From assembly GCA_937961455.1 (NCBI GenBank), contig CALGNN010000091.1:1-41474 (forward strand): DNA of 41,474 bases. Direction: 5' to 3'. The position numbers and the translations under genes were made by a program. Positions 5,344-36,451 of the stretch are shown here, one piece after another. The first letter of the stretch is position 1, and every line of letters begins with the position of its first letter. The notes beneath the pieces were generated by a model, which had not been told where the DNA came from, made no database searches, and saw only the letters and a list, made by a program, of their open reading frames with translations. Source of the stretch: an uncultured Saprospiraceae bacterium (lineage in GTDB: Bacteria > Bacteroidota > Bacteroidia > Chitinophagales > Saprospiraceae).

Positions 5344-6636
5344 ATGTTTCTTAGTATTCAAAATCATAAGATAATGCCAACATCAACTGATAAAGTAAAG
5401 CAGTTTTATTCTGCTATTAAAAATATTCACCCACTCATAGAAAGCATAAAGCACAAGCAAGCTGGTTTAATTCCAGAAGATAGAATACCCATTGGAGGAC
5501 AGGATGCTGAAGCAACTTTACATAGACTTAATTATTTAAAGGAAAGAGGCATCACTTTGCCTTATTTAACGGATGAACAAAAATTTGGTGATTCTGCCTC
5601 GCTTCATGGAAATATAGAAAACTTTGTAGGGTTCACACAAATGCCCGTGGGTGTTGCTGGTCCTGTGCATATACTTGGATCGGAAGCTGTTGGAGATTAC
5701 TATGTGCCCTTAGCTACAACTGAAGGCGCACTAGTCGCCTCTTATGATAGAGGTGCCAGAGCTACAAGAGCTGCTGGAGGGATCACAAGTGTTTGTCTTG
5801 CCGAAGGTGTTCAAAGAAGCCCAGTGTTTAAATTTAAAAATGTTGCTTACATGGGCGAGTTTATTTCTTGGGTCTTGCAGCAAAGAGATAAGTTCCCCGA
5901 TTTAGTAGCCGAACGCAGTAGTCATGCAGAGCTTCAAGATGTTACATTTACTATAGAAGGAAATCATTTGATTCTAACCTTTGAATATACAACAGGTGAT
6001 GCCTCAGGACAAAATATGGTGACATTATGCACCGATCAGATTTGCAAGTACCTCATTGCTAATGCTCCGGTAAAACCAGTTTTCTGGTTTATCGAAGGGA
6101 ATTATTCTGGAGATAAAAAAGCTACCTCTCTTTCATTTTCACATGTCAGAGGAAAAAAGGTTGTCGCCGAAGCCGAATTGCCAAAAGAAATAGTGACGAA
6201 CATTTTAAAAACTACACCAGAAGCCATGGCTGAATATTGGCGATCATCTACAATGGGTGTTGTCCAAACAGGAGCCATCGGAGCACAAGGACACGTTGCC
6301 AATGGATTATGTGCTTTATTTATTGCGACGGGACAAGATGTTGCATGTGTTGCTGAAGCTGCGATTGGCATAACTAGAATGGAACACACCGCTAATGATT
6401 CGCTTTATGTCGCTGTCACGCTTCCTAATTTGATCGTAGGTACTGTCGGAGGAGGAACATGGCTTCCTTGGCAAAAGGAGGGACTGAAAATGTTGGGATG
6501 CGAAGGAAATGGAAAAGCTAGAAAATTTGCGGAAATCTGTGCTGCTATCTCATTGTGTGGAGAAATTTCTATTGCAGCAGCATTATCAGCAGGACATTTT
6601 GCCATGGCACACGCAAAATTTGGCAGAAAAAAATAA
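5344..6636 (+). CDS. hmgA: Class I 3-hydroxy-3-methylglutaryl-CoA reductase
   Basis: This enzyme reduces HMG-CoA to mevalonate, the committed step of the mevalonate route to isoprenoids. Class I features are clear: ENFVGFTQMPVGVAGP, TTEGALVASYDRGARA with catalytic Glu127, GDASGQNMVT in the cofactor fold, GDKKAT with catalytic Lys259, TGQDVACVAEA with Asp332, and SAGHFAMAH with catalytic His418. At 430 residues it is the catalytic domain alone, as in archaea and other bacteria, with no membrane anchor. Two starts are possible: ATG 5344 or ATG 5374 (MPTSTDK); the first ten residues look non-conserved. The isoprenoid-related cluster begins 750 bases downstream on the same strand. The family call is certain. 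Confidence 0.96.
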   Translation: MFLSIQNHKIMPTSTDKVKQFYSAIKNIHPLIESIKHKQAGLIPEDRIPIGGQDAEATLHRLNYLKERGITLPYLTDEQKFGDSASLHGNIENFVGFTQMPVGVAGPVHILGSEAVGDYYVPLATTEGALVASYDRGARATRAAGGITSVCLAEGVQRSPVFKFKNVAYMGEFISWVLQQRDKFPDLVAERSSHAELQDVTFTIEGNHLILTFEYTTGDASGQNMVTLCTDQICKYLIANAPVKPVFWFIEGNYSGDKKATSLSFSHVRGKKVVAEAELPKEIVTNILKTTPEAMAEYWRSSTMGVVQTGAIGAQGHVANGLCALFIATGQDVACVAEAAIGITRMEHTANDSLYVAVTLPNLIVGTVGGGTWLPWQKEGLKMLGCEGNGKARKFAEICAAISLCGEISIAAALSAGHFAMAHAKFGRKK

Positions 6637-6785
6637 TTTATACCAAAAAGCCTTATTAAAGCTTAAAAATAATTCACATTAAATAATAATAGATGTGATT
6701 TAATTAATAATTGGGCAATATGTGCTGATTATAACTTGTAGATTTATCCTATTAATAGGGGCGACCTTCAAAGTATCATATACTT

Positions 6786-7346
6786 ATGAGCACATACAAG
6801 ATTATATTATTGTCAATCACCTTAACTGCGATTAGCCTTTTTTCAGCAAATGCGCAAGGCAAAGGAAGCTTTGATATTGGTGTTGATTATGGAATGAATA
6901 GCTTATACAAACAAGGATATCAAACACTACGATATAAGTCTTTTTTTAGTGGATCCGGTTTGCAAGTTTTTACTTTGTCGAATGGTGTATTAAATGTTTC
7001 ATGTAAATATGCAATCGCAGACAAGTGGCATTTGGGTGTAGATTTTGCGCATGAAAAAATCTTCTTTGAACAGGCTCCTGACGTATTTTATATTTATGGA
7101 GGTGTAAAGCAAATTAATGCTTATACCATAGGCACTAAAATCAACTTCACTTATATAGATTATCCTTTTTTCAAAATGTATTCAGGTATTGCTATTGCAT
7201 ACTCGAATCTTCCTATTATGAGGCATAATATTTCAGCCCATTTAACAGGATGTGGATTTAGAATCGGTAGAAAGCTTGCGATACAAGCAGAAATAGGACA
7301 TGGCTATAGAGGTAAATTTAATACAGGCCTAAATTTTCAATTTTAA
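6786..7346 (+). CDS. Small outer-membrane beta-barrel protein, unknown role
   Basis: The 186-residue product has a clean signal peptide (MSTYKIILLSITLTAISLFSANAQ). The mature part shows alternating hydrophobic strands (VLNVSCKYAIADKWHLGVDF, AYTIGTKINFTYID, LAIQAEIGHGYRG) and ends in an aromatic residue (LNFQF), as expected for an eight-stranded outer-membrane barrel. I cannot assign a substrate or partner. It lies 149 bases after HMG-CoA reductase and 44 bases before the lipid cluster on the same strand, so it may belong to that transcript, but it is not as tightly packed as the genes that follow. Confidence 0.7.
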   Translation: MSTYKIILLSITLTAISLFSANAQGKGSFDIGVDYGMNSLYKQGYQTLRYKSFFSGSGLQVFTLSNGVLNVSCKYAIADKWHLGVDFAHEKIFFEQAPDVFYIYGGVKQINAYTIGTKINFTYIDYPFFKMYSGIAIAYSNLPIMRHNISAHLTGCGFRIGRKLAIQAEIGHGYRGKFNTGLNFQF

Positions 7347-7390
7347 ATATATTATGACCTTATTAAGAATTTAATATATAAATAAATAAA

Positions 7391-7756
7391 ATGAAGATTC
7401 TAACGGTTTATTTAGCTTATTTATGGGTAGGTTTTCTACATGCATTTTTTATTGGAGCTAGCTTTTATATGTGTTTTGGAAAAAAGCTTATACAATGGAA
7501 ATTTTGGCAAGTAGCCCTATTATTTTTTCCAATGTTATTATTTTTTGAAGTTTATTGGATTCCAATGTTCAATTATTTAGAATTAGAATTATTTATTCAA
7601 TCCTCTGAAGTTCATGAATATTTTGGAATCGATGGCAAAACCAATTTAATTAATACTTTAAGACCAAGACTTTTTAATTGGATATTTCTAATAATTCAAG
7701 CCACATTCGCAGTGTGGGTAGGTAAAAAATTATTTAATAGAAATCTAAGAAAATGA
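7391..7756 (+). CDS. Small three-helix membrane protein heading the lipid cluster
   Basis: A 121-residue protein with three strongly hydrophobic segments: residues about 5-27, 37-56 and 93-112. A short polar loop with LRPRLFNW precedes the last helix. I do not recognise a family. Its stop overlaps the start of the UbiA-family gene by four bases (ATGA), which indicates translational coupling, so it is very likely a functional part of that pathway, perhaps a membrane scaffold or subunit. That role is inference. No TAnnTTTG element is visible directly upstream. Confidence 0.7.
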   Translation: MKILTVYLAYLWVGFLHAFFIGASFYMCFGKKLIQWKFWQVALLFFPMLLFFEVYWIPMFNYLELELFIQSSEVHEYFGIDGKTNLINTLRPRLFNWIFLIIQATFAVWVGKKLFNRNLRK

Positions 7757-8676
7757 GTGAAATAAATAATGCATCATTTTTAAGACGTTTTTGGATTTAT
7801 CAGAAAGAACGATTTCCTTTTATACAACATGGGGTATTAATCCTCGTCTTTAGTTTTTCAGCAATTTCATATGCAAGGATCAGTGCTGGAAAACTTGGCT
7901 TTATCGATTGGAAAGTATTCCTACCTGGTGCATTCATTACATTCACCTTGTTTTTAATGCTTCGAATATTTGATGAATTTAAAGATGAGGAAGAGGATAA
8001 AGTACATCGTAGCCATTTACCTGTGCCAAGAGGATTAATAAAACTTAGTGAGTTAAAAATCGTAGGGATTGTAGTTGTAGTATTGCAAATAATAGTTCAA
8101 TTAATCTTCTTTCCGAAGATGCTCATACTTTATGCCTTTGTAATGATTTACATGAGCTTAATGGCGGTGGAATTTTTTATACCTAAATGGTTGGTGGGCC
8201 ATCATTTTTGGTATGTGGTATCACACATGGTTATTATTCCATTTGTAGATATTTTTGCAAGCGGACTTGATTGGTTTATTCTTGGAGAAGATGCGCCCTT
8301 TAATTTGGTTTTCTTTTTTGCAGTATCTTTTATGAATGGTATTGTATTGGAGTTTGGAAGAAAAATTAGAACTCCAGAAAATGAAGAAATTAATACCTAC
8401 AGCACAAAACTTGGAATGGACAAAGCTACTTGGTACTTTTTAATTTCTTTGCTTGTCACTTGGGTCTTTGCTATCGTCGCCGCCTACTATGCAGGATATG
8501 GAATGATCATTTTTATCATTCTTACTTTCTTTCTTATAGCTTGTAGCATTCCAGCCATTTTATTTTTGCAAAATAAAAAAGCAAAATTAGCTAAGGGAAT
8601 TGAAATTGCTTCTGGGGTTTGGACCTTAGCTATGTATTTAATTTTAGGTGCAGGTCCAATGTTGTTTCAAGGATAA
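7753..8676 (+). CDS. UbiA-superfamily prenyltransferase-like membrane protein
   Basis: The 307-residue polytopic protein has about nine membrane helices. The first acidic motif is RIFDEFKDEEED (residues 71-82) followed by PVPRGLI, the pattern of a UbiA subfamily that uses FDExKDxExD in place of NDxxDxxxD. At the second motif position, where classical members have DxxxD, it carries RKIRTPENEE (residues 203-212) followed by NTYSTKLG. Classical UbiA enzymes move a prenyl chain from a diphosphate to an acceptor using Mg bound by both Asp motifs. The altered second site leaves room for a different donor or acceptor. It is coupled to the small membrane protein and followed nine bases later by the dikinase. 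The superfamily call is good; the substrate is unknown. Confidence 0.85.
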   Translation: MSEINNASFLRRFWIYQKERFPFIQHGVLILVFSFSAISYARISAGKLGFIDWKVFLPGAFITFTLFLMLRIFDEFKDEEEDKVHRSHLPVPRGLIKLSELKIVGIVVVVLQIIVQLIFFPKMLILYAFVMIYMSLMAVEFFIPKWLVGHHFWYVVSHMVIIPFVDIFASGLDWFILGEDAPFNLVFFFAVSFMNGIVLEFGRKIRTPENEEINTYSTKLGMDKATWYFLISLLVTWVFAIVAAYYAGYGMIIFIILTFFLIACSIPAILFLQNKKAKLAKGIEIASGVWTLAMYLILGAGPMLFQG

Positions 8677-8685
8677 ATTAATATT

Positions 8686-11271
8686 ATGAGCCACTTAGAA
8701 AATCCAATTTTACAAAAAGAATCCATAGGCGGGAAAGCTGCTAATCTCATTGAATTAGAAAAGCTTGGACTTGAGGTACCTGCATTCACCGTTATTACTG
8801 CTTCACGATTGAAACAAGATAAATCTCCAAACTTTTGGAAACTTCTTGCAGAAGAAACATTAGTGAAAGAAAACTTTGAGGAGGGTGAATTAAGATTTGC
8901 AGTGCGATCTTCAGGAGTTGCTGAAGATGGGATGGATCATTCTTTTGCTGGTCAATTTGAAACAAAACTGAATGTTAGACCCGAAGAAATGGCTGAAGCC
9001 ATAAAGGAAGTATTTGAATCCGCTAATAACGAAAGAGTATTAGAGTATAGGAAAGAAAGAGGCATAAAAGGAGATAATGATGTAGCTATAGTTATTCAAA
9101 AAATGCTTGATCCAGATGTTGCTGGTGTGGCTTTTGGTATTCACCCAGTTACAGGGAGCACAACACATCAAGTTATTTCTTCTGTTTATGGACTGGGAGA
9201 GGGATTAGTTTCTGGTATGTACAATGCAGACACTTTTGTAATATCAGATGATGGAGCAATTGAAAAAGAAATTGTAAAAAAAGATGCTAAGTTGGTTTTT
9301 AATACCCAGACCAACAGTGGTAATATTGAAATGGCTGTGCCACTTGATCAACAAGAAGAGTCTAGTCTATCTGATCCTCAACTAAAAGAAATTCAGCATG
9401 TCCTTAAAAAATTAGAAAGCCATTTTAATCACCCACAGGATATCGAGTTTGCTTTTGAAAATGGCAATTTATTTCTTTTGCAAACACGTCCCATTACAAC
9501 CACAAATATTAAAGCAGTTATTCCAAACGAAGGCGATTATATTATATGGGATAATAGCAATATTGTAGAAAGCTACCCGGGACACTCTTTACCTCTTGGC
9601 TTTTCTTTCATTAGAAAAATGTACGAAGCAGTTTACATTCAGTTTGCCTCTATTATGGGGGTAAGTAAAAAAGAGATAGAAGATAATGCATCTGTTTTTG
9701 CAAATATGCTAGGGATATTAAAAGGTCGAGTTTATTACAATTTATTAAGTTGGTATAGAGCCTTGGCTATGCTTCCTGGATATGCACTCAATGCTGAATT
9801 TATGGAGCGTATGATGGGTGTTAAACAACGTTTTGAATTAGAAGATCTTCCGGTGAGAAGTAAATTTAAAGAGCGAATAAGAGTATTAAATATGGTCAGA
9901 ATTATGATCATCAATTTAGTAGGACTTCCCAAGATGACAAGAAATTTTCAAAGAGATTTTAATGGTGTCATGACAGAATATAATGCCATAAATTTTGAAG
10001 AAAAAAACAGTTGGGAATTAATGCGTTTGTATAAGAGATACGAACAAACCTTATTAAAAAAATGGAAGGCTCCTTTGGTTAATGATTTTTATGCTATGAT
10101 TTACTTTGGGGTTTTACAAAAATTGGTCACCAAGTATAAATTAGATGATTCTGGAACACTTCACAATAATTTACTTTGTGGTGCAAGAGATATTGTTTCC
10201 ACCGACCCTATTAAAAGGTGTCTGAATTTATCTGAAAATATATTAGACAATCAAAAATTAAAAGATCAATTCATTTCATTGGATGCAGACCAACTTTATC
10301 AAGCTTATTTAGACGGTTTATTTCCTGAAAATATTAATCAACAAATAAAAGAATATATCCACAAATGGGGACATAGATGTGTAGGCGAATTAAAATTAGA
10401 AACCATTACCTACAGACAAAACCCTGCAGCTTTTATTGATATTATTAAGACCTATGTCACTCAAGGAATACGAAGCAAAGAAAATAATGTGGATTTAGAA
10501 ATGAGGGCTTCGGCAGAGGCTCAAGTAAAAGAAAAATTAAAAGGAAAATTTTTAAAGAAGCGCCTATTTAATTGGGTATTAAAAAAGACCAGACATCTGG
10601 TGAGTAATAGAGAAAATTTGAGATATGAAAGAACTAGAGGTTATGGTACTGTTAGAGATATATTTTCCGCACTAGGGCATAATTTTAAAAACTTAGATGC
10701 CATAGAATCCGATCGAGATATATTTTATTTAACCCAAGAAGAAATTTTTGATTATATCCAAGGCACCAGCATTACGGATGATTTAAAAGCCCTAATCAGT
10801 CTTAGAAAAATGGAGTATGCTTCTTTTGATACTGCTCCTAAACCTGCAGAAAGAATTAAGACAGATGGTGTCGTATATAAAGTAAATGATTTGACAAGCC
10901 ACCACGAATCAGAAGATCATATAGATGAAGCAGATGATAGTGTTATCAAAGGATTGGGTTGTTGTCCAGGGCTTGTTCGTAAACGGGTAATGGTCATTCA
11001 TGATCCTTCAGAGATCAATAGCTTAAATGGTGATATCCTTGTGACAGTAAGTACAGATCCAGGCTGGGTTACTTTATTCCCAACCGCCTCTGGAATATTG
11101 GTAGAAAAAGGAAGTTTACTCAGCCACTCCGCAATCGTTTCTAGAGAAATGGGAATTCCCTGTGTCGTTGGAATTAATGGCCTTATAGGTAAATTAAAGA
11201 CAGGTGATGTGGTCGAGATGAATGGAAGTACAGGTATAGTAAAACTTATAGAAAACGCTACATTAAACTAA
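8686..11271 (+). CDS. PEP-synthase/rifampicin-phosphotransferase-like dikinase
   Basis: The 861-residue enzyme has three parts. An N-terminal ATP-grasp domain (about 1-270) starts with IGGKAANLIELEKLGLEVPA and contains FAVRSSGVAEDG, GEGLVSG and IEFAFENGNLFLLQTRPITT. A central helical region (about 290-730) has no similarity that I recognise to the PEP/pyruvate barrel. A C-terminal swivelling phosphohistidine domain contains LLSHSAIVSREMGIPCVVG with catalytic His at about residue 814. This order and size match rifampicin phosphotransferase, in which ATP's beta-phosphate goes via His to a small molecule, rather than true PEP synthase. Sitting between UbiA-like and DUF3419 genes, it probably phosphorylates a lipid or prenol intermediate; that is inference. 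Confidence 0.85.
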   Translation: MSHLENPILQKESIGGKAANLIELEKLGLEVPAFTVITASRLKQDKSPNFWKLLAEETLVKENFEEGELRFAVRSSGVAEDGMDHSFAGQFETKLNVRPEEMAEAIKEVFESANNERVLEYRKERGIKGDNDVAIVIQKMLDPDVAGVAFGIHPVTGSTTHQVISSVYGLGEGLVSGMYNADTFVISDDGAIEKEIVKKDAKLVFNTQTNSGNIEMAVPLDQQEESSLSDPQLKEIQHVLKKLESHFNHPQDIEFAFENGNLFLLQTRPITTTNIKAVIPNEGDYIIWDNSNIVESYPGHSLPLGFSFIRKMYEAVYIQFASIMGVSKKEIEDNASVFANMLGILKGRVYYNLLSWYRALAMLPGYALNAEFMERMMGVKQRFELEDLPVRSKFKERIRVLNMVRIMIINLVGLPKMTRNFQRDFNGVMTEYNAINFEEKNSWELMRLYKRYEQTLLKKWKAPLVNDFYAMIYFGVLQKLVTKYKLDDSGTLHNNLLCGARDIVSTDPIKRCLNLSENILDNQKLKDQFISLDADQLYQAYLDGLFPENINQQIKEYIHKWGHRCVGELKLETITYRQNPAAFIDIIKTYVTQGIRSKENNVDLEMRASAEAQVKEKLKGKFLKKRLFNWVLKKTRHLVSNRENLRYERTRGYGTVRDIFSALGHNFKNLDAIESDRDIFYLTQEEIFDYIQGTSITDDLKALISLRKMEYASFDTAPKPAERIKTDGVVYKVNDLTSHHESEDHIDEADDSVIKGLGCCPGLVRKRVMVIHDPSEINSLNGDILVTVSTDPGWVTLFPTASGILVEKGSLLSHSAIVSREMGIPCVVGINGLIGKLKTGDVVEMNGSTGIVKLIENATLN

Positions 11272-11275
11272 TATT

Positions 11276-12361
11276 ATGGCCATTACAGATAAAGCAAAGT
11301 TTGATTTTGTCCGATACGCAAATGTTTGGGAAGATGCTACAGTATTAGCTAAAGCATTACAAATTCAAAAGGGAGAAAAACTTTTATCTATTGCATCTGC
11401 AGGAGATAATTGTTTTTACTTGCTAAAAGACGAACCTGAGATTGCAGTTGCAGTTGATTTAAGCGAAGTCCAATTATATTTAGTTGAATTAAAAAAATCA
11501 GCTATTAGAACTTTAGAATATGAGGACGTTTTAGGTTTTTTGGGCTTTAGAGAAAACCATAAAAGAATTAATTTATACCAAAAGATAAAATCTGAAATCC
11601 CTTCAGAAGCAAGAGCTTATTGGGATACAAAAGAAGATGTCATTAAGGAAGGATTATTGCATGACGGTAAATTTGAAAAGTATTTTCAGACCTTCAGTAA
11701 TAAAGTATTACCCTACATTCATAGCAAGGAAAAAACAAAAGAACTTTTTAAGATTAAAAGTGCCGAAGCTCAAAAAGAATTCTATGATAAAAAATGGAAT
11801 ACTTGGAGGTGGAGATTACTATTTAAAGTTTTTTTTAGTAAAAGAATTATGGGATGGCTCGGCCGAGATCCTGAATTTTTAAAACAAGTAGAAATTAATG
11901 TGGGGAATTTTATTTTTAATCAAGCGGAAAAACAATTAAGTAGTGAGAAAGCTCATAGCAATCATATGCTTCGTTACAACTTAACTTCTTCTTTTGATGA
12001 TCTCCTTCCAGAGTATTTACAAAAAGAACATTATGCTACAATTAAAAACCATATCGACAATGTCCATTGCTTTAAAGGTTATGCACAAGAAGCTAGTGCA
12101 AAGTATGGTAATTTTGACGTCATGAACTTGTCAAATATTTTTGAATATATGGATCAAAAAATATTTAAAGAAAGTGGACAAGCATTTATTGATATCGCAA
12201 ATCCAGGAGCAAGAATAGCTTATTGGAATTTAATGGTACCCAGACGTCTTTCTAAAGAATTTAATCAATTAACATTTTTAGAATCCTTAAGTAATGATTT
12301 AATGAGAGAGGATAAAGGTTTCTACTACAGTCAATTTGTTGTTGAAAAATTAACTGAATAA
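11276..12361 (+). CDS. DUF3419 protein, BtaA-like 3-amino-3-carboxypropyltransferase
   Basis: The 361-residue soluble protein opens with FVRYANVWEDATVLAKAL and an AdoMet-site-like SIASAGDN (residues 38-45), then VAVDLSEVQLYLVELK. These are hallmarks of DUF3419, whose characterised member BtaA moves the 3-amino-3-carboxypropyl group of AdoMet onto diacylglycerol to make the homoserine head of betaine lipids. Later segments include FFSKRIMGWLGRDPEFL and a C-terminal MNLSNIFEYMD. No BtaB-like N-methyltransferase is present in the cluster, so the head group, if made, would stay unmethylated or be modified otherwise. The start is four bases after the dikinase stop and the next start is one base after this stop. 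Confidence 0.85.
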   Translation: MAITDKAKFDFVRYANVWEDATVLAKALQIQKGEKLLSIASAGDNCFYLLKDEPEIAVAVDLSEVQLYLVELKKSAIRTLEYEDVLGFLGFRENHKRINLYQKIKSEIPSEARAYWDTKEDVIKEGLLHDGKFEKYFQTFSNKVLPYIHSKEKTKELFKIKSAEAQKEFYDKKWNTWRWRLLFKVFFSKRIMGWLGRDPEFLKQVEINVGNFIFNQAEKQLSSEKAHSNHMLRYNLTSSFDDLLPEYLQKEHYATIKNHIDNVHCFKGYAQEASAKYGNFDVMNLSNIFEYMDQKIFKESGQAFIDIANPGARIAYWNLMVPRRLSKEFNQLTFLESLSNDLMREDKGFYYSQFVVEKLTE

Positions 12362-12362
12362 C

Positions 12363-13064
12363 ATGAATTATAAATATCTGATTATTCTCGCTAGTGCGTT
12401 CTTATTGCTATTTATTATATCTGAGTTTATTTATAGAGTATTTCATGTTAAGACTGAATACACGAGAAAATTCGTCCATATAGGTACGGGTTTATTAACC
12501 ATGTTTTTTCCAATTTTATTAAGCTCGCATTGGGAGGTATTAATTTTATGCAGCTCCTTTATGTTTATTTTATTATTGAGTTTTAAATTCAAATTTTTGC
12601 AATCAGTTAATGCGATTAAAAGGAAATCTTTTGGAAGCCTTTGCTACCCTATCGCAGTTTATTTTTCATATTTGGCTTTTAGTATTGTAAAAGCAAGAGG
12701 TGTTTCGACCCTATCTCCATTATTGTTTTATTACTTACCTATTTTAATTATGGCATTCTGTGATCCTATTGCAGCTTTAGTTGGGAAAAAATATCCTATA
12801 AGAAAATATAAGGTGGGTTCAGGCACAAAATCTATAGGCGGAAGCAGCAGCTTTTTAATTGCAGCGATTGTGCTTACCCTGTCATTAATGTTTTCTTTTC
12901 AGAGTGAATTTTCTTTTTGGCTTGTATTAATAACTGCCTTATTGACGTCTATAAGTACCATGATTGTAGAAGCGATTTCTCCAAATGGCCTTGACAATTT
13001 TACCATTCCTGCTACAGCCATTGCCAGTTTGTTGCTAGTGAATTTTTATTTATTTATACAATAA
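12363..13064 (+). CDS. Phytol/dolichol-kinase-like CTP-transferase family membrane protein
   Basis: The 233-residue protein has about seven membrane helices and the motifs of the polyprenol-kinase/phosphatidate-cytidylyltransferase superfamily: TRKFVHIGTGL after helix 1, FCDPIAALVGKKY in the middle, SGTKSIGGSSSF, and a C-terminal EAISPNGLDNFTIP that fits the usual acidic motif ahead of the last helices. Relatives such as plant VTE5 and yeast Sec59 use CTP to phosphorylate phytol or dolichol; others form CDP-lipids. In this cluster it would activate a prenol or diglyceride. It is separated from the DUF3419 gene by one base. The superfamily is clear; kinase versus cytidylyltransferase is not. 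Confidence 0.82.
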   Translation: MNYKYLIILASAFLLLFIISEFIYRVFHVKTEYTRKFVHIGTGLLTMFFPILLSSHWEVLILCSSFMFILLLSFKFKFLQSVNAIKRKSFGSLCYPIAVYFSYLAFSIVKARGVSTLSPLLFYYLPILIMAFCDPIAALVGKKYPIRKYKVGSGTKSIGGSSSFLIAAIVLTLSLMFSFQSEFSFWLVLITALLTSISTMIVEAISPNGLDNFTIPATAIASLLLVNFYLFIQ

Positions 13065-13073
13065 ATATATTTT

Positions 13074-14063
13074 ATGCACACACTTATATCTGAAGATTTC
13101 GAAGTTTTTAAAAAACACTATATAAGTCTTTCTGAAGGATTGTATCAGAAAGAAGTGACTATTGAAGAGCCATATCGAGGAAAGGATAAATTGTATTTTA
13201 TTCAATTGGATGATGAAGAAGTAGTGATTGCCACAATGATCTATTTTCCAAACACCTCAATGAAAGTTGATGACATAAAAGCTACTTGCTTTGGGTATTT
13301 TGAAGCACGCAATCATCCTGAAGGAGTTAAAGAAATGTTTAAGGCATTGAAATCACAAATAAACGATAATGAAATATTGTTTGGTCCAATGAATGGTTCT
13401 ACTTGGGATAATTATCGAATAGCGATTAACCTTTTTCAGCCGTCCTTTCCTATGGATGTTTCCAATCCAGCATATTATCCAAAGCTATTAGCTCATGCCG
13501 AATTAGAAGTGGCGAAAAGCTATGCTTCACATATAGATAAAAAGTTTGTCTACGATAAAGAGAAAATTCAAATGAAGCATGATCAATTGAAAGCTCAAGG
13601 TGCAAGAATTAGGAATATTAATTTAGACGATTTTGACCAAGAGCTTGATAAGGTTTACGATTTATGTATGTCGAGTTTTACAAACAGTTTTTTGTTTTCT
13701 ACAATTGAAAGAAAAGAATTTAAGTCGCGCTACTTGGCAATGAAGCCTTATTTGCAAGCTGATTATATATGGTTTGTAGTAGACGATAGCGATGATTTGA
13801 AAGGGATGATGTTTGCCTTATCATATCCAGGACCGAATAATACAAAGGCATATATGGCCAAAACCTTGGCAAGAGTACCAGATAAAAGATATGCAGGTAT
13901 AGGGAGTGTTTTATCGGCCCTATTAATGGAAAAAGCGCAAGAAGATGGATGTAGTTTTGGAGTGCATGCTTTCATGGAAGATAAAAATGTATCAAATGTT
14001 TTATCAGGAAGATTTTCAGGTGAGCCAGCTAAAATGTATCATTTGTATAAGTATCAGAAATAA
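13074..14063 (+). CDS. GNAT-fold N-acyltransferase (YghO-like)
   Basis: The 329-residue protein resembles the YghO-type GNAT proteins. An N-terminal half contains FGPMNGSTWDNYRIAI and SNPAYYPKLLAHAELEVAKS, equivalent to the FGPxNxSxND...NPPYY pattern of that family. A C-terminal GNAT core contains FVVDDSDDLKGMMFALSYPG and the acyl-CoA-binding segment ARVPDKRYAGIGSVLSALLM. It ends HLYKYQK. Such enzymes transfer acyl groups to amines. The DUF3419 step would create an amino group, so an N-acylation of the head group is a reasonable guess. The stop overlaps the next gene's start (TAATG), implying coupling. Confidence 0.78.
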   Translation: MHTLISEDFEVFKKHYISLSEGLYQKEVTIEEPYRGKDKLYFIQLDDEEVVIATMIYFPNTSMKVDDIKATCFGYFEARNHPEGVKEMFKALKSQINDNEILFGPMNGSTWDNYRIAINLFQPSFPMDVSNPAYYPKLLAHAELEVAKSYASHIDKKFVYDKEKIQMKHDQLKAQGARIRNINLDDFDQELDKVYDLCMSSFTNSFLFSTIERKEFKSRYLAMKPYLQADYIWFVVDDSDDLKGMMFALSYPGPNNTKAYMAKTLARVPDKRYAGIGSVLSALLMEKAQEDGCSFGVHAFMEDKNVSNVLSGRFSGEPAKMYHLYKYQK

Positions 14064-14629
14064 TGAAAAAGCTTTTTAAAATCATAGGGGTATTGTTAAT
14101 AATTGAAGCGCTTTTTTTGCTTTTTGCTCCTTACAAATTTCATGATAATCTTTCGATGCGCGCGATTGCATATGAGATTGAGATAGATAGAAATAAAGAA
14201 TACATTTTTGAGTACCTAGGCAATTCAAAAAATGCGAGTGAATGGTCTGAGTTTGTGGATCATATTACACCACTTAATTCGACAATGGTCCCAGACGGTG
14301 ATATCCATTCCATGCGAAGATGTTTTAAGAATAAAAATGAAAAAGGAATAAAATGGGATGAGGAAATACTGGAAGTTATCCCAAATCAAAAGAGGAAGTT
14401 AAGTTGCTTTAACTTGGAAGGCTTTTTTATGGAAACGGACAATATTAGAACGGAGCAATTGTATGAAGAAATAGACCCTAATAAAACTTTATTGACTTTT
14501 TCTGTTTATTTCGAAGGCCAAAAATCAATTTGGGAAACGCTAAAAATTAGATCTGCTTCATGGTACATTAAATACATTTTTAAGAAAAATATGGAAAACA
14601 TTAAGATGTATTGTGAAAAGCAAAAATGA
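14063..14629 (+). CDS. Membrane-anchored SRPBCC (START/polyketide-cyclase-like) protein
   Basis: The 188-residue protein has one N-terminal membrane helix (residues about 4-22, KKLFKIIGVLLIIEALFLLF) and a soluble SRPBCC-like domain: YEIEIDRNKEYIFEYLGN, WSEFVDHITPL, WDEEILEVIPNQKRKLSC, then a long C-terminal amphipathic helix. This fold makes a deep hydrophobic pocket and is used for lipid binding, cyclisation or transfer. A lipid-chaperone role within the cluster would fit, but there are no catalytic residues that I can point to. It overlaps the GNAT gene by one base and its stop is one base before the ligase ATG. Confidence 0.75.
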   Translation: MKKLFKIIGVLLIIEALFLLFAPYKFHDNLSMRAIAYEIEIDRNKEYIFEYLGNSKNASEWSEFVDHITPLNSTMVPDGDIHSMRRCFKNKNEKGIKWDEEILEVIPNQKRKLSCFNLEGFFMETDNIRTEQLYEEIDPNKTLLTFSVYFEGQKSIWETLKIRSASWYIKYIFKKNMENIKMYCEKQK

Positions 14630-14630
14630 A

Positions 14631-16127
14631 ATGAGCATGGACTTCAATATATATAGCGTTTTTGAAGATGCTGCAAAAAAGTATGGTGATCGTATTGCCA
14701 TCATAGAAGACGGGAAAAAAATTAATTACAATAATTTAGAAATTGCTGTAAATAAGACGACGCAATATTTTTATGATAAAGGCATAAGAAAAGGAGATCG
14801 AGTATTGGTTTTTGTGCCAATGGGAATTGAGTTATATCGAATTGTTTTAGCACTTTTTAAAATGGGAGCTACAGCTGTTTTTTTGGACGAGTGGGTCAGT
14901 GTAAAAAGATTAAAAGTTTGTTGTCGATTGGCTAATTGCAAAGGATTTATAGGAATAAGAAAGGCGAGACTCATGGGCTGGTTTATTAAAGAGCTCAGAC
15001 AAGTTCCGGTAAAGCTGCATGATAAGACTTATGATACATACAATCAGAAAACACAATCAGAGGAGACTAAGGGAGAACTGCCAGCATTAATTACATTCAC
15101 AACAGGAAGCACAGGTACTCCTAAAGCTGCGTTGCGAACCCATGCTTTTTTAAAAGAACAATTTGATGCACTTATTGAAGAAATAAATCCACAGGCTGGA
15201 GATGTAGATATGACGACACTGCCCATAGTTTTACTCATCAATCTAGGAGCTGGAGCAACATCCATCATTGCAAAATTTAATCAGAAGAAACCAGAGCTGC
15301 TTAAAGCTTCAACCATAGTTGAACAGATCCAAAATAATAAAGTTAACCGCATTACCGCCTCACCTTTCTTTTTAAGAAAATTAGCAGATCATGTTTTAAA
15401 GCACGATATAAAATTGCCAAGTCTCAAATATGCATTTACGGGGGGAGCGCCGGTTTTCCCAAAAGAGGCAAGCATTTTTAATCAAGCTTTAGCCAATACA
15501 GAAACACTAGTTGCTTATGGTTCGACCGAGGCTGAGCCTATCAGTTTAATAACGGCCAAAGAAGTGGCAGAGCAAAAAAAGTCTAATGGACTTTTAAAAG
15601 GATTGGCCGTTGGGGCTCCTTATCATAAAACAAGAACCAAAATAATTGCTTGGACAGATCATGCCTTAAACGAATTGCATCCCTTAGAGCAAGGAGCTGT
15701 TGGAGAAATTGTTGTTGCTGGACCTCATGTTTTAAAACAATATTTTAATAACCCAGAAGCATTAAAGCGAAATAAAATTATTGTAGATGATACAATGTGG
15801 CATCGAACTGGGGATAGTGGTTTTTTTGATGAGGAAGGGAAATTGTTTTTAACAGGTAGATGTAAGACCTTATTTAAATATAACGATCAACTAGTTTGTC
15901 CATTTTTAATTGAAGATTTTATTTTAAATCTGGATCATGTTACAATGGGTACCATTCTAAAAAAAGATTCAGGTATTGAATTTGTCTTAGAAGGAAAAGA
16001 TGCTGATAAACAACAAATAGAAAAAGAATTAAGAAACTTAAAATTCGATCCATTCACGGTTAGATGGATGGATCGAATTCCAAGAGATCCTAGGCATAAT
16101 TCCAAAATCGATTATGCACAATTATAA
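14631..16127 (+). CDS. OleC-like AMP-dependent synthetase (ANL superfamily)
   Basis: The P-loop is FTTGSTGTPKAALRTH, the A5-type motif AYGSTEAEPIS, the hinge region WHRTGDSGFFDEEGKLFLTG, and the C-terminal Lys motif DPRHNSKIDYAQL. The MTTLPIVLLINLGAG segment and the RHNSKI ending resemble OleC, the beta-lactone synthetase of long-chain olefin biosynthesis, more than ordinary acyl-CoA ligases. OleA, OleB and OleD partners are absent from the window. The enzyme would adenylate a carboxylate, either a fatty acid or a hydroxy acid. I start at ATG 14631, one base after the preceding TGA; the frame extends to GTG 14613, but that would overlap. It closes the cluster and converges with a TonB receptor gene three bases away. 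Confidence 0.85.
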   Translation: MSMDFNIYSVFEDAAKKYGDRIAIIEDGKKINYNNLEIAVNKTTQYFYDKGIRKGDRVLVFVPMGIELYRIVLALFKMGATAVFLDEWVSVKRLKVCCRLANCKGFIGIRKARLMGWFIKELRQVPVKLHDKTYDTYNQKTQSEETKGELPALITFTTGSTGTPKAALRTHAFLKEQFDALIEEINPQAGDVDMTTLPIVLLINLGAGATSIIAKFNQKKPELLKASTIVEQIQNNKVNRITASPFFLRKLADHVLKHDIKLPSLKYAFTGGAPVFPKEASIFNQALANTETLVAYGSTEAEPISLITAKEVAEQKKSNGLLKGLAVGAPYHKTRTKIIAWTDHALNELHPLEQGAVGEIVVAGPHVLKQYFNNPEALKRNKIIVDDTMWHRTGDSGFFDEEGKLFLTGRCKTLFKYNDQLVCPFLIEDFILNLDHVTMGTILKKDSGIEFVLEGKDADKQQIEKELRNLKFDPFTVRWMDRIPRDPRHNSKIDYAQL

Positions 16128-16130
16128 TTT

Positions 16131-18515
16131 TTAAAATTGAATACGATATAAGAAGTCAGGAAAGAAACCACTTTGTAATTTTTTATTTAGCTCTTGATTA
16201 GTTCTATCATAATCTATTGAAAATACATTTTCCCGATTAGTAATATTTTGAAAATCCATGAATAATTGCTGAGAAATCTTACGTTTCTTACTATTCAATT
16301 TGAAACCAACTTTTACATCAAGTCTAAAGTAGTCATCATATTGTTGAGAGAATGCTTGGCTTTCATCGCGCACCTCAAAATTATTAGCAATTGAGGCTTC
16401 AAGATTAATTGGAGTATAATATCTGCCTCCAGCATTAGTCAATTTTCCATCAATAGTAATGGCATTATTAGCTCCTATTTTAAATTCTTTTCCGCCCAAG
16501 ACATTCAATACAAATCTATTATTGAAAGGCGTATTTCGCTCTATTCCATCACTGCCTGTATATTTTGAATCAAATAAAGAAGCCGTTAACAAACTATGAA
16601 ACCCTTTGCTGAAAAATTTTTCAAGCGTTAGTTCAATCCCTTGATTATATCCAGTTCCATCATTTGTTAAATGGGTCTTTCCTGCAGGGAAGCCAAAGTC
16701 AGCTCCAAGATTTAAAAGCGAAAATGAACTTGGAGAAACATCAATGGCAGCTCTATCAATATCTTGATAATAAGCCTCGATTTTGGCTCTCCAGTTTTCG
16801 GCAAAAGCATAATCATAAGCAAGGACGAAATGTTGACTTCTAAAAAATTGAAGGTCTTTATTTCTCAAAAGTCTGTTACCAAATTCATCACTGCTCTCTG
16901 CTAATACAATGGGTAAGGCTTGACTCTGACTGTGCAGGCCATAACCAAATGTCAGCTTTTGTTTGTCATTAATATTATATGCAAGAGATCCCCTTGGTTC
17001 GATGGCAAATTGCTCATTGATTTCATTATACAATCCATGTAAACCTAAATTGACCTGCCATTTTTTGTTAAACTTATGTTGAAATTGAATGAAGGGCTGA
17101 AATTCTAGTACTCTTTCTTCAAATTCATAAACCTGCACTAATTCATTAATTCCATCACCATTCGTATCAGGCCCAAAACTGGCATCATTATTTGATAAAT
17201 CATAGGCTTTAGACTCGACCAAGATTCCAGTTCTAAATGAATTTTTAGCGTTGATTTTTCTGTTATAAAATGAACTAAGAGATATATTTACAATGGCGTC
17301 TTTCCCTTCAGCAATACGTGCTTTTTGCTCTTCAGCCGTATCGATATAATAATATCTATCTAATTGAAAATCATTATAAGCATACGAACTGGCTAGGACG
17401 GTTCTTAAGTAACTCTTCTCACCAATAATTTTGTTGTGCTTCAATCCTACTACCCCAAATCTTGAATTTGCATAGAGGTCCTCGCTTTGATCTGAAAACA
17501 AATCATCTGATCCAATCTCCTCTCCTATAAAATCAATGGAGCTTCTGCCACCAATACCGAATAGAGAAAATTTTCCTGCTTTGCCATTTGGGCTGTCTAT
17601 TTTAAAAGACAAATCCGTATAGCTAGGAACAGCGTTAGTTTGAGGAGGAGATATTAAAACAATAAAACTATTTCTTAGGGCAACTAGATAGGATCCTCCC
17701 TTCTTACCCAATGGTCCTTCTGCCATGGCTTCTATACCTGAAAATGCAGCCATTTGAAATGTAAATTCATGCTTGTCTCTGTTTCCTGTTCTCATACTCA
17801 AGTCAAAAACTCCAGAGGAAGCATTGCCATACTCTGCAGAAAAAGCACCCGTCAAAAAATCTGAATTTTTTAGAATGTTTGGATTCATGGCACTAACAGG
17901 GCCACCAGTACTGCCAAGTGTTGAAAAGTGATTGGGATTTGGAATAGGAATTCCTTCAAGTCGCCAAAGTAAACCAGATGGTGAATTGCCTCGAATGACA
18001 ATATCATTTCTGCTATCATCCGCAGTTGCTACTCCTGCAAAATTGCCAGCTAATCTTGCAATATCACTTCGTCCTCCTGCGTATCTATTGACTTCTTCTA
18101 AACTGAAGGTTCTTCCTGAGATGGTAGTGTACTCGTTAATTGCCCGATCTTTTGGCACAGTTGCTCTGACGACTACCTCATCCAAGACTTCAATAGACTC
18201 CACCATGCTCAGATTCAAAAAAACTTCTTTTCCTCTGGTTAATTCAACATTGGGTAAGGTGATGGTTTCGTAGCCGAGATAACTTATTCTAAATACTTGT
18301 CTACCAACAGGAATTTCTTCAAGGCTAAAGTAGCCGTCGAAGTCAGAAACAGCGCCTTTGGTTTCATTTTCGCTCAGCCATTCTATGCTTGCGCCAATTA
18401 TGGGAACTTCAGACTGTTTATCTATTATTTGACCTTTTACAGTTTGAGTTGAAGATTGCGCTTGCACTTGAATGAAGAGGATGCAACACAATACAATTGA
18501 AAATAAATGTTTCAC
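16131..18515 (-). CDS. TonB-dependent outer-membrane receptor with regulatory-like N-domain
   Basis: The 794-residue protein has a signal peptide ending in VQAQ. A carboxypeptidase-D regulatory-like beta-sandwich covers about residues 22-108 (TVKGQIIDKQSEVPIIGASI, SDFDGYFSLEEIPVG, ISYLGYETI). The plug lies around 115-240 (NDIVIRGNSPSGLLWRLEGI, AFSAEYGNASSGVFDLSMRT), followed by a 22-strand-type barrel ending in FLYRIQF. Such receptors import large or scarce ligands, energised by TonB. No SusD partner follows, so a glycan role is less likely. The LytTR/LytS pair lies just upstream on the same strand (108-base gap) and could control it; this is a positional inference. Confidence 0.92.
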   Translation of the reverse strand: MKHLFSIVLCCILFIQVQAQSSTQTVKGQIIDKQSEVPIIGASIEWLSENETKGAVSDFDGYFSLEEIPVGRQVFRISYLGYETITLPNVELTRGKEVFLNLSMVESIEVLDEVVVRATVPKDRAINEYTTISGRTFSLEEVNRYAGGRSDIARLAGNFAGVATADDSRNDIVIRGNSPSGLLWRLEGIPIPNPNHFSTLGSTGGPVSAMNPNILKNSDFLTGAFSAEYGNASSGVFDLSMRTGNRDKHEFTFQMAAFSGIEAMAEGPLGKKGGSYLVALRNSFIVLISPPQTNAVPSYTDLSFKIDSPNGKAGKFSLFGIGGRSSIDFIGEEIGSDDLFSDQSEDLYANSRFGVVGLKHNKIIGEKSYLRTVLASSYAYNDFQLDRYYYIDTAEEQKARIAEGKDAIVNISLSSFYNRKINAKNSFRTGILVESKAYDLSNNDASFGPDTNGDGINELVQVYEFEERVLEFQPFIQFQHKFNKKWQVNLGLHGLYNEINEQFAIEPRGSLAYNINDKQKLTFGYGLHSQSQALPIVLAESSDEFGNRLLRNKDLQFFRSQHFVLAYDYAFAENWRAKIEAYYQDIDRAAIDVSPSSFSLLNLGADFGFPAGKTHLTNDGTGYNQGIELTLEKFFSKGFHSLLTASLFDSKYTGSDGIERNTPFNNRFVLNVLGGKEFKIGANNAITIDGKLTNAGGRYYTPINLEASIANNFEVRDESQAFSQQYDDYFRLDVKVGFKLNSKKRKISQQLFMDFQNITNRENVFSIDYDRTNQELNKKLQSGFFPDFLYRIQF

Positions 18516-18623: not shown

Positions 18624-19388
18624 TTATTGGTTAACCCAATTTTTAAAATGAGATACTCTATTCCTTGAAACTAAAAATTTAATATCCTTTCCCTTATTAA
18701 TATCAATGGACAATCTATTATTAAAATAAGGTTGAATTTTTTCTATCGAACCGATTGAAATAATTTGATGTCGATTAATTCTAAAGAATAATTTTTCATC
18801 TATCGCTTTTTCTATGGACTCTAAAGTCATATCTACGATATAGCGTTTATTATTTTGGGTCTTTAAAAAAGAAACTCCATCTTCTGAATAAAAGAAATTG
18901 ATATCTTCTATTTGAACGATCGTCATTGAATTTCCTTCTTTAACAATAAATCGTTCTTTTCTTTTGTCTTGAGTTAATTGATTAACTAAATTTTGTAATA
19001 CTTGAGAATCAATATTATTTTTTGAAGACAATTGATGGAGTGATTTAAATTTTTCAATGGCTGCAACTAAATCGATTTCAACCAATGGCTTTAATAAATA
19101 ATCAATGCTATTGACTTTAAAAGCTTTAATAGCATACTGATCGTAAGCTGTAGTAAATATTACAGGAGATACTATTTTAGTTTGTTGAAAAATTTCAAAG
19201 CTCAAACCATCAGCTAATTGGATATCCATAAATATAAGATCTGGAGCATCATTATTATTAAACCAATGAATACTATCTTCAACAGACTCAAGTGTTTCGA
19301 GAATATTAAATTCTGGAAAATGTTTTTTAACTAAAATTTCAAGCTGCTCAGAAGCTCTTATTTCATCTTCAATAATTAGAACATTCAT
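18624..19388 (-). CDS. LytTR-family response regulator
   Basis: The 254-residue protein has an N-terminal receiver domain with acidic pocket Glu7/Asp8, phosphoacceptor Asp55 (DLIFMDIQLADG) and the conserved Lys of SIDYLLKPL. A LytTR DNA-binding domain covers about residues 145-254 (MTIVQIEDINFFYSEDGVSF, FFRINRHQIISIGSIEKIQP, FLVSRNRVSHFKNWV). It follows the sensor kinase by five bases, so the two form one two-component unit of the LytS/LytR type common in Bacteroidota. LytTR regulators bind pairs of short repeats; none could be picked out with confidence here. Confidence 0.93.
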   Translation of the reverse strand: MNVLIIEDEIRASEQLEILVKKHFPEFNILETLESVEDSIHWFNNNDAPDLIFMDIQLADGLSFEIFQQTKIVSPVIFTTAYDQYAIKAFKVNSIDYLLKPLVEIDLVAAIEKFKSLHQLSSKNNIDSQVLQNLVNQLTQDKRKERFIVKEGNSMTIVQIEDINFFYSEDGVSFLKTQNNKRYIVDMTLESIEKAIDEKLFFRINRHQIISIGSIEKIQPYFNNRLSIDINKGKDIKFLVSRNRVSHFKNWVNQ

Positions 19389-19393
19389 TGGAA

Positions 19394-20458
19394 TTAATTT
19401 AGTAGGGGAAGGCTGACAATAAATTGGGTTTCGGATTCTATAATTTTGGTCAAATTGGCATTTGTTAAAAGTCTATACCTTTCTTTAATATTATCCAAAC
19501 CGACCTTAGTAGAATGTAAGACATTCGATTTCTTTTGTAAATTATTAACCACACGAATACTTTGGCTTTCTTGGTCAATTTCAATTTTAATATGGAGCGG
19601 TCTTTTTGAAGAGATAATATTGTGTTTTACGGCGTTTTCAATAAGTAGTTGAATACTTAAAGGAATTATTTTAAAGCCTAAATACTTTTTATCGATTTGA
19701 ACGTCAATAAATAAATTGTCCATAAACCGCTTCTTTTGAATTTTCACATAAGCATCAACAAAGGCCAATTCTTCTTTTAAGCTAATGGTGCTTTCTGTCC
19801 GACTGTCCAATATGTATCGGTACACTTTTGATAATTCATTAATAAATCCCTTTGCATTGTATTTACTCTCATGATCAATAATATGATTCAACGTATTAAG
19901 ACTATTAAATAAGAAATGTGGGTTTACCTGATTTCGTAATCCATCTAATTGGGATTGAATATGGGTGACTTTAGCCAACTCCTGTTCTTGAATAACTTTT
20001 TTTAATTGATGATGGTACCACAGCGTTTCATAAATAGTAAGGATAAAAAGGGTCGCAAACAAAGAAGCAAAAAAGACTTGTATGATGGGAGGGTGATAAA
20101 GCCGATTGGAATTAAGCAAATCATGGACATGAGTTAAACAAAATCCAAGAATAAAACTTAAAAGAATTACAGCAATGAAACAAGATAGAATCGATAAAAT
20201 GATTCTTTTTTTGATCATATTAAATTCAGGGTATTTTTTTCGATACCAAATCATAATGGTTTCGCTTACCTGCCAATAGCAAAAAGTATAAATACCACAT
20301 TCCAGCCACTCAAGATAAAATTGATCAAAAGGATTAATTCGTGCATTAAAAAAAGCAAGCGGAATGAAAAAACCTAAGACAAAAATCCCAATTATTTTAA
20401 ACCAAAAATCATTGAAACCGATAAACTCGTCATACGTTTTATGGTTTTTATAAATCAT
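19394..20458 (-). CDS. LytS-type sensor histidine kinase
   Basis: The 354-residue protein has four membrane helices in the first 145 residues. A coiled linker follows, then the His_kinase domain with phosphoacceptor His181 in NQVNPHFLFNSLNTLNHIID. A HATPase module follows with IQLLIENAVKHNI (N box) and KVGLDNIKERYRLLT (G box). No periplasmic or PAS sensor domain is visible, so the membrane part must sense the signal. A near match to TAnnTTTG (GAACTTTG) lies about 20 bases upstream of the ATG on the minus strand. It pairs with the LytTR regulator directly downstream. Confidence 0.92.
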   Translation of the reverse strand: MIYKNHKTYDEFIGFNDFWFKIIGIFVLGFFIPLAFFNARINPFDQFYLEWLECGIYTFCYWQVSETIMIWYRKKYPEFNMIKKRIILSILSCFIAVILLSFILGFCLTHVHDLLNSNRLYHPPIIQVFFASLFATLFILTIYETLWYHHQLKKVIQEQELAKVTHIQSQLDGLRNQVNPHFLFNSLNTLNHIIDHESKYNAKGFINELSKVYRYILDSRTESTISLKEELAFVDAYVKIQKKRFMDNLFIDVQIDKKYLGFKIIPLSIQLLIENAVKHNIISSKRPLHIKIEIDQESQSIRVVNNLQKKSNVLHSTKVGLDNIKERYRLLTNANLTKIIESETQFIVSLPLLN

Positions 20459-26491: not shown

Positions 26492-26542
26492 AACAATAAA
26501 TCATTAAAAAAATATTCAGAAATGAATTTAAAATATAAAACA

Positions 26543-27454
26543 ATGAAAAATTTATTTGCAATTATATTCTGCCTTTCAGTAGTCTTTAATGCAGAAGCTC
26601 AATTATCTGTAGATATGGCGACGGGTAATACCTTTGTTGAAAAAACATTAAGAGTAACTACAAATACTTTGACAACCAACGATTACGGTTTTAGTATGGG
26701 AGGCAATGCTATTTTTGCTATAGATGCTGTTAACGTGGTAGGAGGTAGAATGACAGTTCTTGAAAATGGTTTAGTAGGTTTGGGAACAGCAACGCCTATT
26801 ACCAAACTTCATGTTGAAGGTGACAACTACATCAGTGGGTCTAGATATATTTATGGAAGCCAGGATTACACACTTAATACTACCAAAATGTTGTTCGAGT
26901 ATTCTCAAGCATTTCCAGGGTGGGGCTTGTCTTATGAGGTTGATGGAATATGGGAAAGGATGAACTTCCAAAGTCCTTTTCAAGCTGTATTGTCTATTGG
27001 TTTGAATGAAGGAAAAGTTGGAATTTTAACTACTAATTTAACTCATGCGCTTAACATCGCTGGTGATATTGGAATGACTGGAACGATATACGGTGTTTCC
27101 GACAGAAGAGTGAAAAAAGATTTTTTACCAATCGATAAAGCATTAGATAAAATCACTCAGTTGAATCCAGTTAGCTATCATTTTAAAACGGATGAAAATC
27201 CTGAAATGAAATTATCTGAGAAAAGACAAATGGGATTAATTGCACAAGAAGTCTTAGAAATATTTCCAGATCTCGTTAGTGTTCCTGATGCAGAAGATGA
27301 AATGTTGGCTTTGAATTACATCGAATTAATTCCTGTATTGATCAAGTCTGTGCAAGAGTTGAATGAACAATTGCTCGATAAAGAAGAAGAATTAAAAGAA
27401 AAAGATATTCAAATAGAAAATATTTTAAAGCGTCTTGAAGCGCTTGAAAAATAA
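26543..27454 (+). CDS. Secreted protein with S74 intramolecular chaperone (tail-fibre) domain
   Basis: The 303-residue protein begins MKNLFAIIFCLSVVFNAEAQ (signal) and has a beta-rich middle with GLVGLGTATPITKLHVEGDN, typical of Bacteroidota surface proteins. The C-terminal 110 residues are a Peptidase_S74 domain: SDRRVKKDFLPIDKALDKI with the Ser-Asp autocleavage pair, MGLIAQEVLEIFPDLVS, and LNYIELIPVLIKSVQELNEQ leading into a coiled coil. In phage tail fibres this domain trimerises the fibre and then cuts itself off. I prefer ATG 26543 over ATG 26522 because it gives a shorter, cleaner signal. It is followed by a strong terminator. Confidence 0.88.
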   Translation: MKNLFAIIFCLSVVFNAEAQLSVDMATGNTFVEKTLRVTTNTLTTNDYGFSMGGNAIFAIDAVNVVGGRMTVLENGLVGLGTATPITKLHVEGDNYISGSRYIYGSQDYTLNTTKMLFEYSQAFPGWGLSYEVDGIWERMNFQSPFQAVLSIGLNEGKVGILTTNLTHALNIAGDIGMTGTIYGVSDRRVKKDFLPIDKALDKITQLNPVSYHFKTDENPEMKLSEKRQMGLIAQEVLEIFPDLVSVPDAEDEMLALNYIELIPVLIKSVQELNEQLLDKEEELKEKDIQIENILKRLEALEK

Positions 27455-36444: not shown

Positions 36445-36451
36445 AAATTGA

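Follow-up and report, generated by a model that had tools for sequence, protein, structure and literature searches.

DUF3419 is the Pfam family which we take to be that of BtaA, the enzyme that transfers an aminocarboxypropyl group from S-adenosylmethionine (SAM) in betaine lipid synthesis. Two further described systems resemble the locus treated here in their UbiA-family enzymes, as far as the available portions of the two papers go: the ebo cluster with UbiA-297 is a conserved operon, present in Flavobacteria and further Bacteroidota, that includes a UbiA-like enzyme (PMC9235831), and the archaeal-type lipid genes of the Fibrobacteres-Chlorobi-Bacteroidetes (FCB) group comprise a UbiA-family enzyme together with CDS/CarS-like and CDP-alcohol phosphotransferase steps (PMC7852524). 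Here, we analyzed a window of 41,474 nt (the whole stretch of DNA under study, i.e. positions 1 to 41,474 of the forward strand of contig CALGNN010000091.1, assembly GCA_937961455.1) from an uncultured Saprospiraceae bacterium (Bacteroidota), and found an operon that joins a DUF3419 protein and a UbiA-like enzyme to a relative of HMG-CoA reductase (HMGR) and to genes probably concerned with lipid activation and acylation. This gene set probably builds a nitrogen-containing membrane lipid, and it appears to be widespread yet undescribed: in the open-licence full-text literature (subscription papers and preprints lie outside it) no description of an operon of this composition was found.

A gene order conserved in Bacteroidota

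Pfam and NCBIfam profile searches of the window proteins gave the following families for the cluster and the two open reading frames (ORFs) lying within it.

5344-6636, + strand: HMGR-like protein of class I type (PF00368, 374 bits), start of the conserved unit
6786-7346, + strand: outer-membrane beta-barrel-like ORF between HMGR and gene A (OMP_b-brl, 14.7 bits, under the cut-off)
7391-7756, + strand: gene A, membrane protein of 121 aa, matching neither Pfam nor NCBIfam; a local addition
7753-8676, + strand: gene B, UbiA-family prenyltransferase-like membrane enzyme (PF01040, 40.5 bits, cut-off 34.2)
8686-11271, + strand: gene C, ATP-grasp/phosphohistidine dikinase-like protein of the phosphoenolpyruvate (PEP) synthase/rifampin phosphotransferase (RPH)/PigC superfamily (PPDK_N and PEP-utilizers domains)
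11276-12361, + strand: gene D, DUF3419 protein, BtaA-related (PF11899, 217.9 bits, cut-off 28.2)
12363-13064, + strand: gene E, membrane protein resembling CTP-dependent lipid-alcohol kinases (homologues weakly PF01148)
13074-14063, + strand: gene F, tandem GNAT N-acyltransferase-like protein (13.6-bit GNAT match; homologues PF00583)
14063-14629, + strand: gene G, SRPBCC/START-like protein, an optional member (PF10604 Polyketide_cyc2, 18.7 bits, cut-off 27.4)
14613-16127, + strand: gene H, acyl-AMP ligase, a FadD/OleC relative (AMP-binding PF00501, 155 bits)

The eight ORFs of the initial annotation, A to H, are all present on the + strand where it had placed them. Its claim of gaps or overlaps of one to nine bases holds for six junctions (A/B -4, B/C +9, C/D +4, D/E +1, E/F +9 and F/G -1), and for G/H it depends on the start codon of H, since GTG at 14613 gives -17 and the in-frame ATG at 14631, which may be the true start, gives +1.

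To compare the order across genomes we scanned genome contigs with four D sequences and examined the best 80 of 332 relatives of D; going by their record titles, 79 of these 80 loci are from Bacteroidota, and the remaining one is titled simply 'bacterium'. Many of the loci are cut by contig ends, and a locus is called testable below where its sequence is long enough. The recurring order in Bacteroidota is HMGR, UbiA, PPDK, DUF3419, CTP-kinase-like, GNAT, (SRPBCC), AMP ligase. Among testable loci HMGR stands directly before B in 48 of 55; the further pairs stand in this order in all 61 (B-C), 70 of 72 (C-D), 67 of 68 (D-E), 67 of 72 (E-F) and all 69 (F-H). By tblastn, the 80 loci contain C in 76 cases, E and F in 72 each, H in 69, B in 64, HMGR in 52 and G in 15 (a G ORF is seen in 16 of the 63 loci having both F and H ORFs), and all seven core genes occur in 39 of the 44 loci that extend 1.5 kb or more before B and 4.5 kb or more after D. 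In addition, pairwise distances of the seven genes correlate at 0.79-0.95 (31 loci). The gene order is thus not unique to this genome but conserved in many Bacteroidota, and the genes form a unit, as had been annotated, whose order is kept across the 80 loci beyond chance.

The unit does not begin where it had been thought to begin. The initial annotation let the cluster start with gene A as its leader and omitted the HMGR gene; since HMGR directly precedes B in most testable loci, the real cluster starts at HMGR. Gene A and the barrel ORF are no conserved part of it, their best matches in the 80 loci being non-significant (E 0.20 and E 0.089, respectively). A promoter motif scan found a lone TAnnTTTG, presumably a promoter motif, 48 bases upstream of the HMGR start, without a good partner.

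The window's assembly (4.6 Mb, 96% complete) has D as its sole DUF3419 gene. When D was searched against 60 related genomes, 15 gave a match, the close ones being the window's own genome and three others (G022, G017 and G037; 47-54% identity for these three). Of these, G017 and G037 have the genes in the sequence HMGR, UbiA, PPDK, DUF3419, E, GNAT, AMP ligase (with SRPBCC between E and GNAT in G037) and an HMGR-UbiA spacing of 1-2 bases, and in G022 the contig ends inside C and D is followed by neither E, F nor H. In a separate sample of 395 genomes of the phylum, searched with cut-offs of E <= 1e-30 for B, E <= 1e-150 for HMGR and E <= 1e-60 for D, the B-type UbiA was found in 8 genomes, the cluster-type HMGR in the same 8 and in G083, where it stands alone, and the cluster-type D in 12 (the same 8 plus G197, G412, G189 and G250). 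The distance between HMGR and B is at most 50 bases in 7 of the 8 genomes; in the window's own, the barrel ORF and gene A intervene. Because B, HMGR and D occur in so few of the 395 genomes, the operon is rare and patchy in this sample, not universal.

The HMGR-like protein and its hosts

Class assignment sets the tested cluster HMGRs apart from those tested of genomes with mevalonate-type markers. The four tested, including that of the window, score best with TIGR00533, the NADPH-HMGR equivalog, yet all four stay under its cut-off of 441.8 bits (307 bits for the window; 316, 313 and 357 for the others). We further distinguished mevalonate (MVA)-type from methylerythritol phosphate (MEP)-type genomes by the markers mevalonate diphosphate decarboxylase (MDD) and IspG, respectively; the searches covered IspG, MDD and HMGR. 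The HMGRs of MVA-type genomes pass the cut-off of TIGR00532 (degradative class) in 5 of 5 tested cases. Among 27 cluster-related genomes (26 distinct, G457 being identical to G215), 20 have IspG, 9 have MDD (G215/G457 counted twice) and 22 have some HMGR. A cluster HMGR together with IspG and without MDD is found in 12 of the 27 (G037, G074, G326, G334, G314, G263, G451-G454, G456 and G458). G461 also has IspG without MDD, its HMGR being of a different kind and outside the cluster; G459 and G460 have both markers; and G250, G197, G412, G189 and G462 have IspG but neither MDD nor HMGR. In the window's genome MDD is present and IspG unmatched. Because of the 12 genomes with cluster HMGR and IspG but no MDD we rejected isoprenoid supply, on these markers, as the role of the HMGR: in many hosts the enzyme probably does not feed the canonical mevalonate pathway.

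The acyl pocket was compared in 54 ORFs of HMGR drawn from 83 loci, a set that includes the divergent copy on the opposite strand of L067. The equivalents of the catalytic residues Glu559, Lys691, Asp767 and His866 are kept wherever aligned (53-54 of 54), and those of Arg590 and Lys692 are retained in the aligned HMGRs. At the position of Ser684, however, all 53 aligned sequences carry Glu, and none of the 54 has Lys735; both residues are kept in the five solved class I HMGR sequences that we compared. According to the portion of the paper available, Ser684 is among the polar contacts of bound statin and Lys735 forms a salt bridge to its HMG carboxylate (PMC9500038). The HMGR-like protein is probably a thioester reductase with an altered acyl pocket, and a relative of the statin target enzyme seems to have been re-used in a new role.

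A stand-alone subfamily of class-I-like HMGRs (frames of about 440-600 aa) is common in MDD-less Bacteroidota; it includes L110, L120, L124 and L166-L171, and no recurrent lipid genes were seen in the neighbourhoods of L166-L171. MDD is absent from 25 of 28 tested genomes with a class-I-like HMGR, some cluster genomes included. HMGR homologues in MDD-less genomes mean that in this phylum the presence of HMGR is no proof of a mevalonate pathway.

A proposed aminolipid and competing explanations

The analysis favours a dedicated operon for an N-acylated aminolipid, a reading to which we give about an even chance. Its mechanism builds on established family chemistry and gene context. B and C would prepare a hydrophobic alcohol acceptor, which is a guess, and D would move the 3-amino-3-carboxypropyl group of SAM onto the lipid hydroxyl. 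H would activate an acyl donor, which F would attach to the new amine. Reduction by the HMGR-like enzyme, or in other lineages by a NAD_binding_4 reductase, would then turn an acyl thioester into a primary alcohol; the carboxyl concerned would be, as a further guess, the aminocarboxypropyl carboxylate or that of a fatty acid. This primary alcohol would be phosphorylated by E or by a diacylglycerol kinase (DAGK), and certain lineages could add a phospho-headgroup to the lipid phosphate by means of a CTP transferase, a CDP-alcohol phosphotransferase and a phosphatidylserine (PS) decarboxylase.

For D, a 3-amino-3-carboxypropyl transfer from SAM is proposed, and the amine placed by D is suggested to be acylated by F, because in L067 D and F form a single 637-aa ORF without a stop (in which Pfam detects DUF3419), and because a GNAT gene adjoins a fusion of DUF3419 with a PEMT-type phospholipid methyltransferase domain in L149 (9073-10935, - strand), which is flanked by DAGK and GNAT genes. 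The fusion of DUF3419 to GNAT supports the earlier idea of an aminocarboxypropyl head that is subsequently N-acylated. F alone gives the weak 13.6-bit GNAT match, 33 of 57 F homologues match PF00583, and its predicted model (pLDDT 93.6) has a tandem GNAT fold resembling MAB_4324 (TM 0.61) and MshD (TM 0.58), and also FemX and NMT. E itself has no Pfam match; 5 of 26 E homologues weakly match CTP_transf_1 (PF01148, best 1.1e-4), and the conserved motifs are RK..H and DP.A..G. The catalytic motifs of C and H are nearly invariant: the swivel His814 of C is found in 74 of 74 sequences, the P-loop Lys171 of H in 71 of 72 and its A10 Lys498 in 67 of 68 aligned sequences. In B, the first acidic motif DExxDxxxD is present in 55 of 55 aligned sequences, and the second (residues 200-212) is replaced by GRK...E with one invariant Glu in 56 of 56. 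A prenol as the activated alcohol, one of the two possibilities suggested earlier, found no support.

The accessory genes of related clusters agree with the earlier statement that the families concern lipids, head groups and N-acylation, as in relatives the cluster is extended by genes for a CTP transferase, a CDP-alcohol phosphotransferase and a PS decarboxylase. In 10 of the 80 loci, 5 of them from Sphingobacterium, a CTP transferase (PF01148) and a CDP-alcohol phosphotransferase (PF01066) lie inside the operon, at two different positions. In L147 (G197) and L148 (G412) a NAD_binding_4 reductase takes the place of HMGR, and a PS decarboxylase is present as well; the two genomes give no HMGR match, and L147 has a DAGK instead of gene E. 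In L153 (5133-8119) of G022, a member of the window's family, another HMGR-like gene lies beside a CarS-like gene (28.4 bits, cut-off 22) and a CDP-OH_P_transf gene. The proposed order of steps accounts best for these accessory genes.

Several observations weigh against this proposal. The product and the enzyme activities are predictions from the genes. The predicted model of D is confident (96.9), but its matches to PDB structures are weak methyltransferase-like folds (best TM 0.30), and a sequence search of the PDB gave no match; the D-F fusion was seen once only, in a metagenome-assembled genome. The atypical second motif of B means that it may not use prenyl diphosphate. The two pocket changes of the HMGR are shared, in a profile search, by the stand-alone proteins L110, L120 and L124 and hence are not cluster-specific. 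Five of the 27 genomes are without any HMGR, and one of these loci, L096, is otherwise an ordinary cluster including E. H need not serve the reductase, because it persists where HMGR is absent, and both variant clusters, L147 and L148, are without H. We also considered whether HMGR and E, both missing from L072, L092 and L098 of one clade, had been lost together, as a sign of shared action. This deserves little weight, because a divergent HMGR-like gene lies on the opposite strand of L067, a locus of that clade, at about 1 kb from B, and because L035, L077 and L096 have E without HMGR.

Other explanations start from the same genes. The adjacency of UbiA and HMGR, and the window's genome with its MDD and unmatched IspG, would fit an HMGR that boosts prenyl diphosphate for a UbiA enzyme making a prenylated lipid or a quinone-like molecule; this is very unlikely given the 12 IspG genomes without MDD (in searches covering MDD and IspG) and the separate TIGR00532-class HMGR held by the MVA-type genomes tested. 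The operon HMGR might instead truly make mevalonate that is built into the product directly, not via isoprenoids, or exported. The retained catalytic residues and Arg590/Lys692 equivalents speak for it, and hosts could obtain HMG-CoA via leucine breakdown; the changes at Ser684 and Lys735, the four scores below the NADPH-HMGR equivalog cut-off and the two variant clusters that use a NAD_binding_4 reductase in genomes without HMGR make it improbable.

We give still less credence to an archaeal-type ether lipid pathway in which B would be a digeranylgeranylglyceryl phosphate (DGGGP) synthase acting after a geranylgeranylglyceryl phosphate (GGGP) synthase, and reject it as the principal explanation. 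B weakly matches a DGGGP synthase in the PDB (E 0.092), the window's genome carries a GGGP synthase (PcrB), the CarS-like gene adjoins an HMGR-like gene in L153, and archaeal-type lipids are workable in FCB bacteria, according to the part of the study available (PMC7852524). However, 5 of the 12 cluster-type-D genomes, including 4 of the 8 with B, gave no PcrB match above the cut-off, neither PcrB nor glycerol-1-phosphate dehydrogenase was identified in the operons, and the roles of D, F and H are left unexplained. A secreted small molecule, e.g. a prenylated amino-acid natural product with C as a PigC-type ligase, is likewise an unlikely product: C scores 300 bits with PigC and 287 with RedH, though far under the cut-offs, and presence is patchy (D in 12 of 395 genomes), but in relatives the cluster also takes in CDS-like, CDP-alcohol phosphotransferase and PS decarboxylase genes, and the family tables show no recurrent transporter or peptide synthetase inside the operon. 

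A more specific form of the aminolipid proposal, itself doubtful, is a phospholipid-like product on a SAM-derived backbone instead of glycerol or serine. A lipid alcohol would receive a homoserine unit from D and be N-acylated on that unit by F, and the homoserine carboxylate would be reduced as a thioester to a primary alcohol, either by a NAD_binding_4 reductase or by the HMGR-like enzyme, whose Glu in place of Ser684 perhaps reads the nitrogen; E or DAGK would phosphorylate this alcohol, and the CDS-like, CDP-alcohol phosphotransferase and PS decarboxylase enzymes would add a head group. If this is true, diacylglycerol and sphingoids would be joined by a third type of diradyl backbone, and HMG-CoA reductase would have been re-used outside the mevalonate pathway.

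For the N-acylated aminolipid in general, the cluster, with its 332 D homologues, may explain some of the 'unidentified aminolipids' of its carriers. In the available part of the source (PMC11356934), Dyadobacter fermentans and Rhabdobacter roseus are listed with an unidentified aminolipid (AL) among their major polar lipids, and the genomes of both species carry the operon (L045 and L081). Because AL is reported for other bacteria too, the match is only a lead.

Neighbouring genes and comparison with known systems

Elsewhere in the window, a TonB-dependent receptor-like gene (16131-18515) is followed by a LytTR response regulator and His_kinase pair (18624-20458, - strand). A Peptidase_S74 (endosialidase chaperone) protein follows a Trypsin_2 protein (26522-27454, + strand), and a TonB plug/FecR_C protein adjoins a FecR protein (33814-37429, - strand), as in sigma/anti-sigma uptake loci.

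Among known systems, the ebo cluster was rejected, as its partners EboA-E (TatD-like, dehydroquinate synthase-like and TIM barrel proteins in the accessible text of PMC9235831) do not occur in this operon. The FCB archaeal-type lipid genes, in the sections at hand, differ in their GGGP synthase, which is not in the operon and is missing from several carrier genomes. For the elb ether lipids, the portion of the paper available (PMC11868695) gave no match for the terms examined. OleABCD membership was rejected, since H scores 195 and 190 bits with the olefin beta-lactone synthetase models against cut-offs of 900 and 850.

The betaine lipid system is closer, in that D shares the family DUF3419 with BtaA and likely an aminocarboxypropyl transfer from SAM. 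A ~210-aa methyltransferase-like ORF is the following gene in 13 of 18 other DUF3419 neighbourhoods viewed (Pfam-checked in two), whereas no BtaB-like methyltransferase is found among the window's ten ORFs at 5344-16127 or the recurrent families of the 80 loci. With BtaB absent, and D being only 21-23% identical to the methyltransferase-paired DUF3419s in the alignment, we rejected a betaine lipid pathway. C has both domains and the swivel histidine of the rifampin phosphotransferase/PigC/PEP synthase superfamily, but it passes none of the NCBIfam models shown, PRK06241.2-2 coming closest (737 vs 883 bits); with 300 bits against a cut-off of 1300 for PigC and 270 against 999 for RPH, and RedH also far below its cut-off, it was rejected as a PigC or rifampin phosphotransferase member. 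The cluster HMGR, finally, has whole-domain homology to class I HMG-CoA reductase and its catalytic residues, but differs in being an orphan in MEP genomes, in the change of Ser684 to Glu and the loss of Lys735, and in scoring below the equivalog cut-off. Taken together, the families are known; their combination and the use made of HMGR are, as far as can be seen, new.

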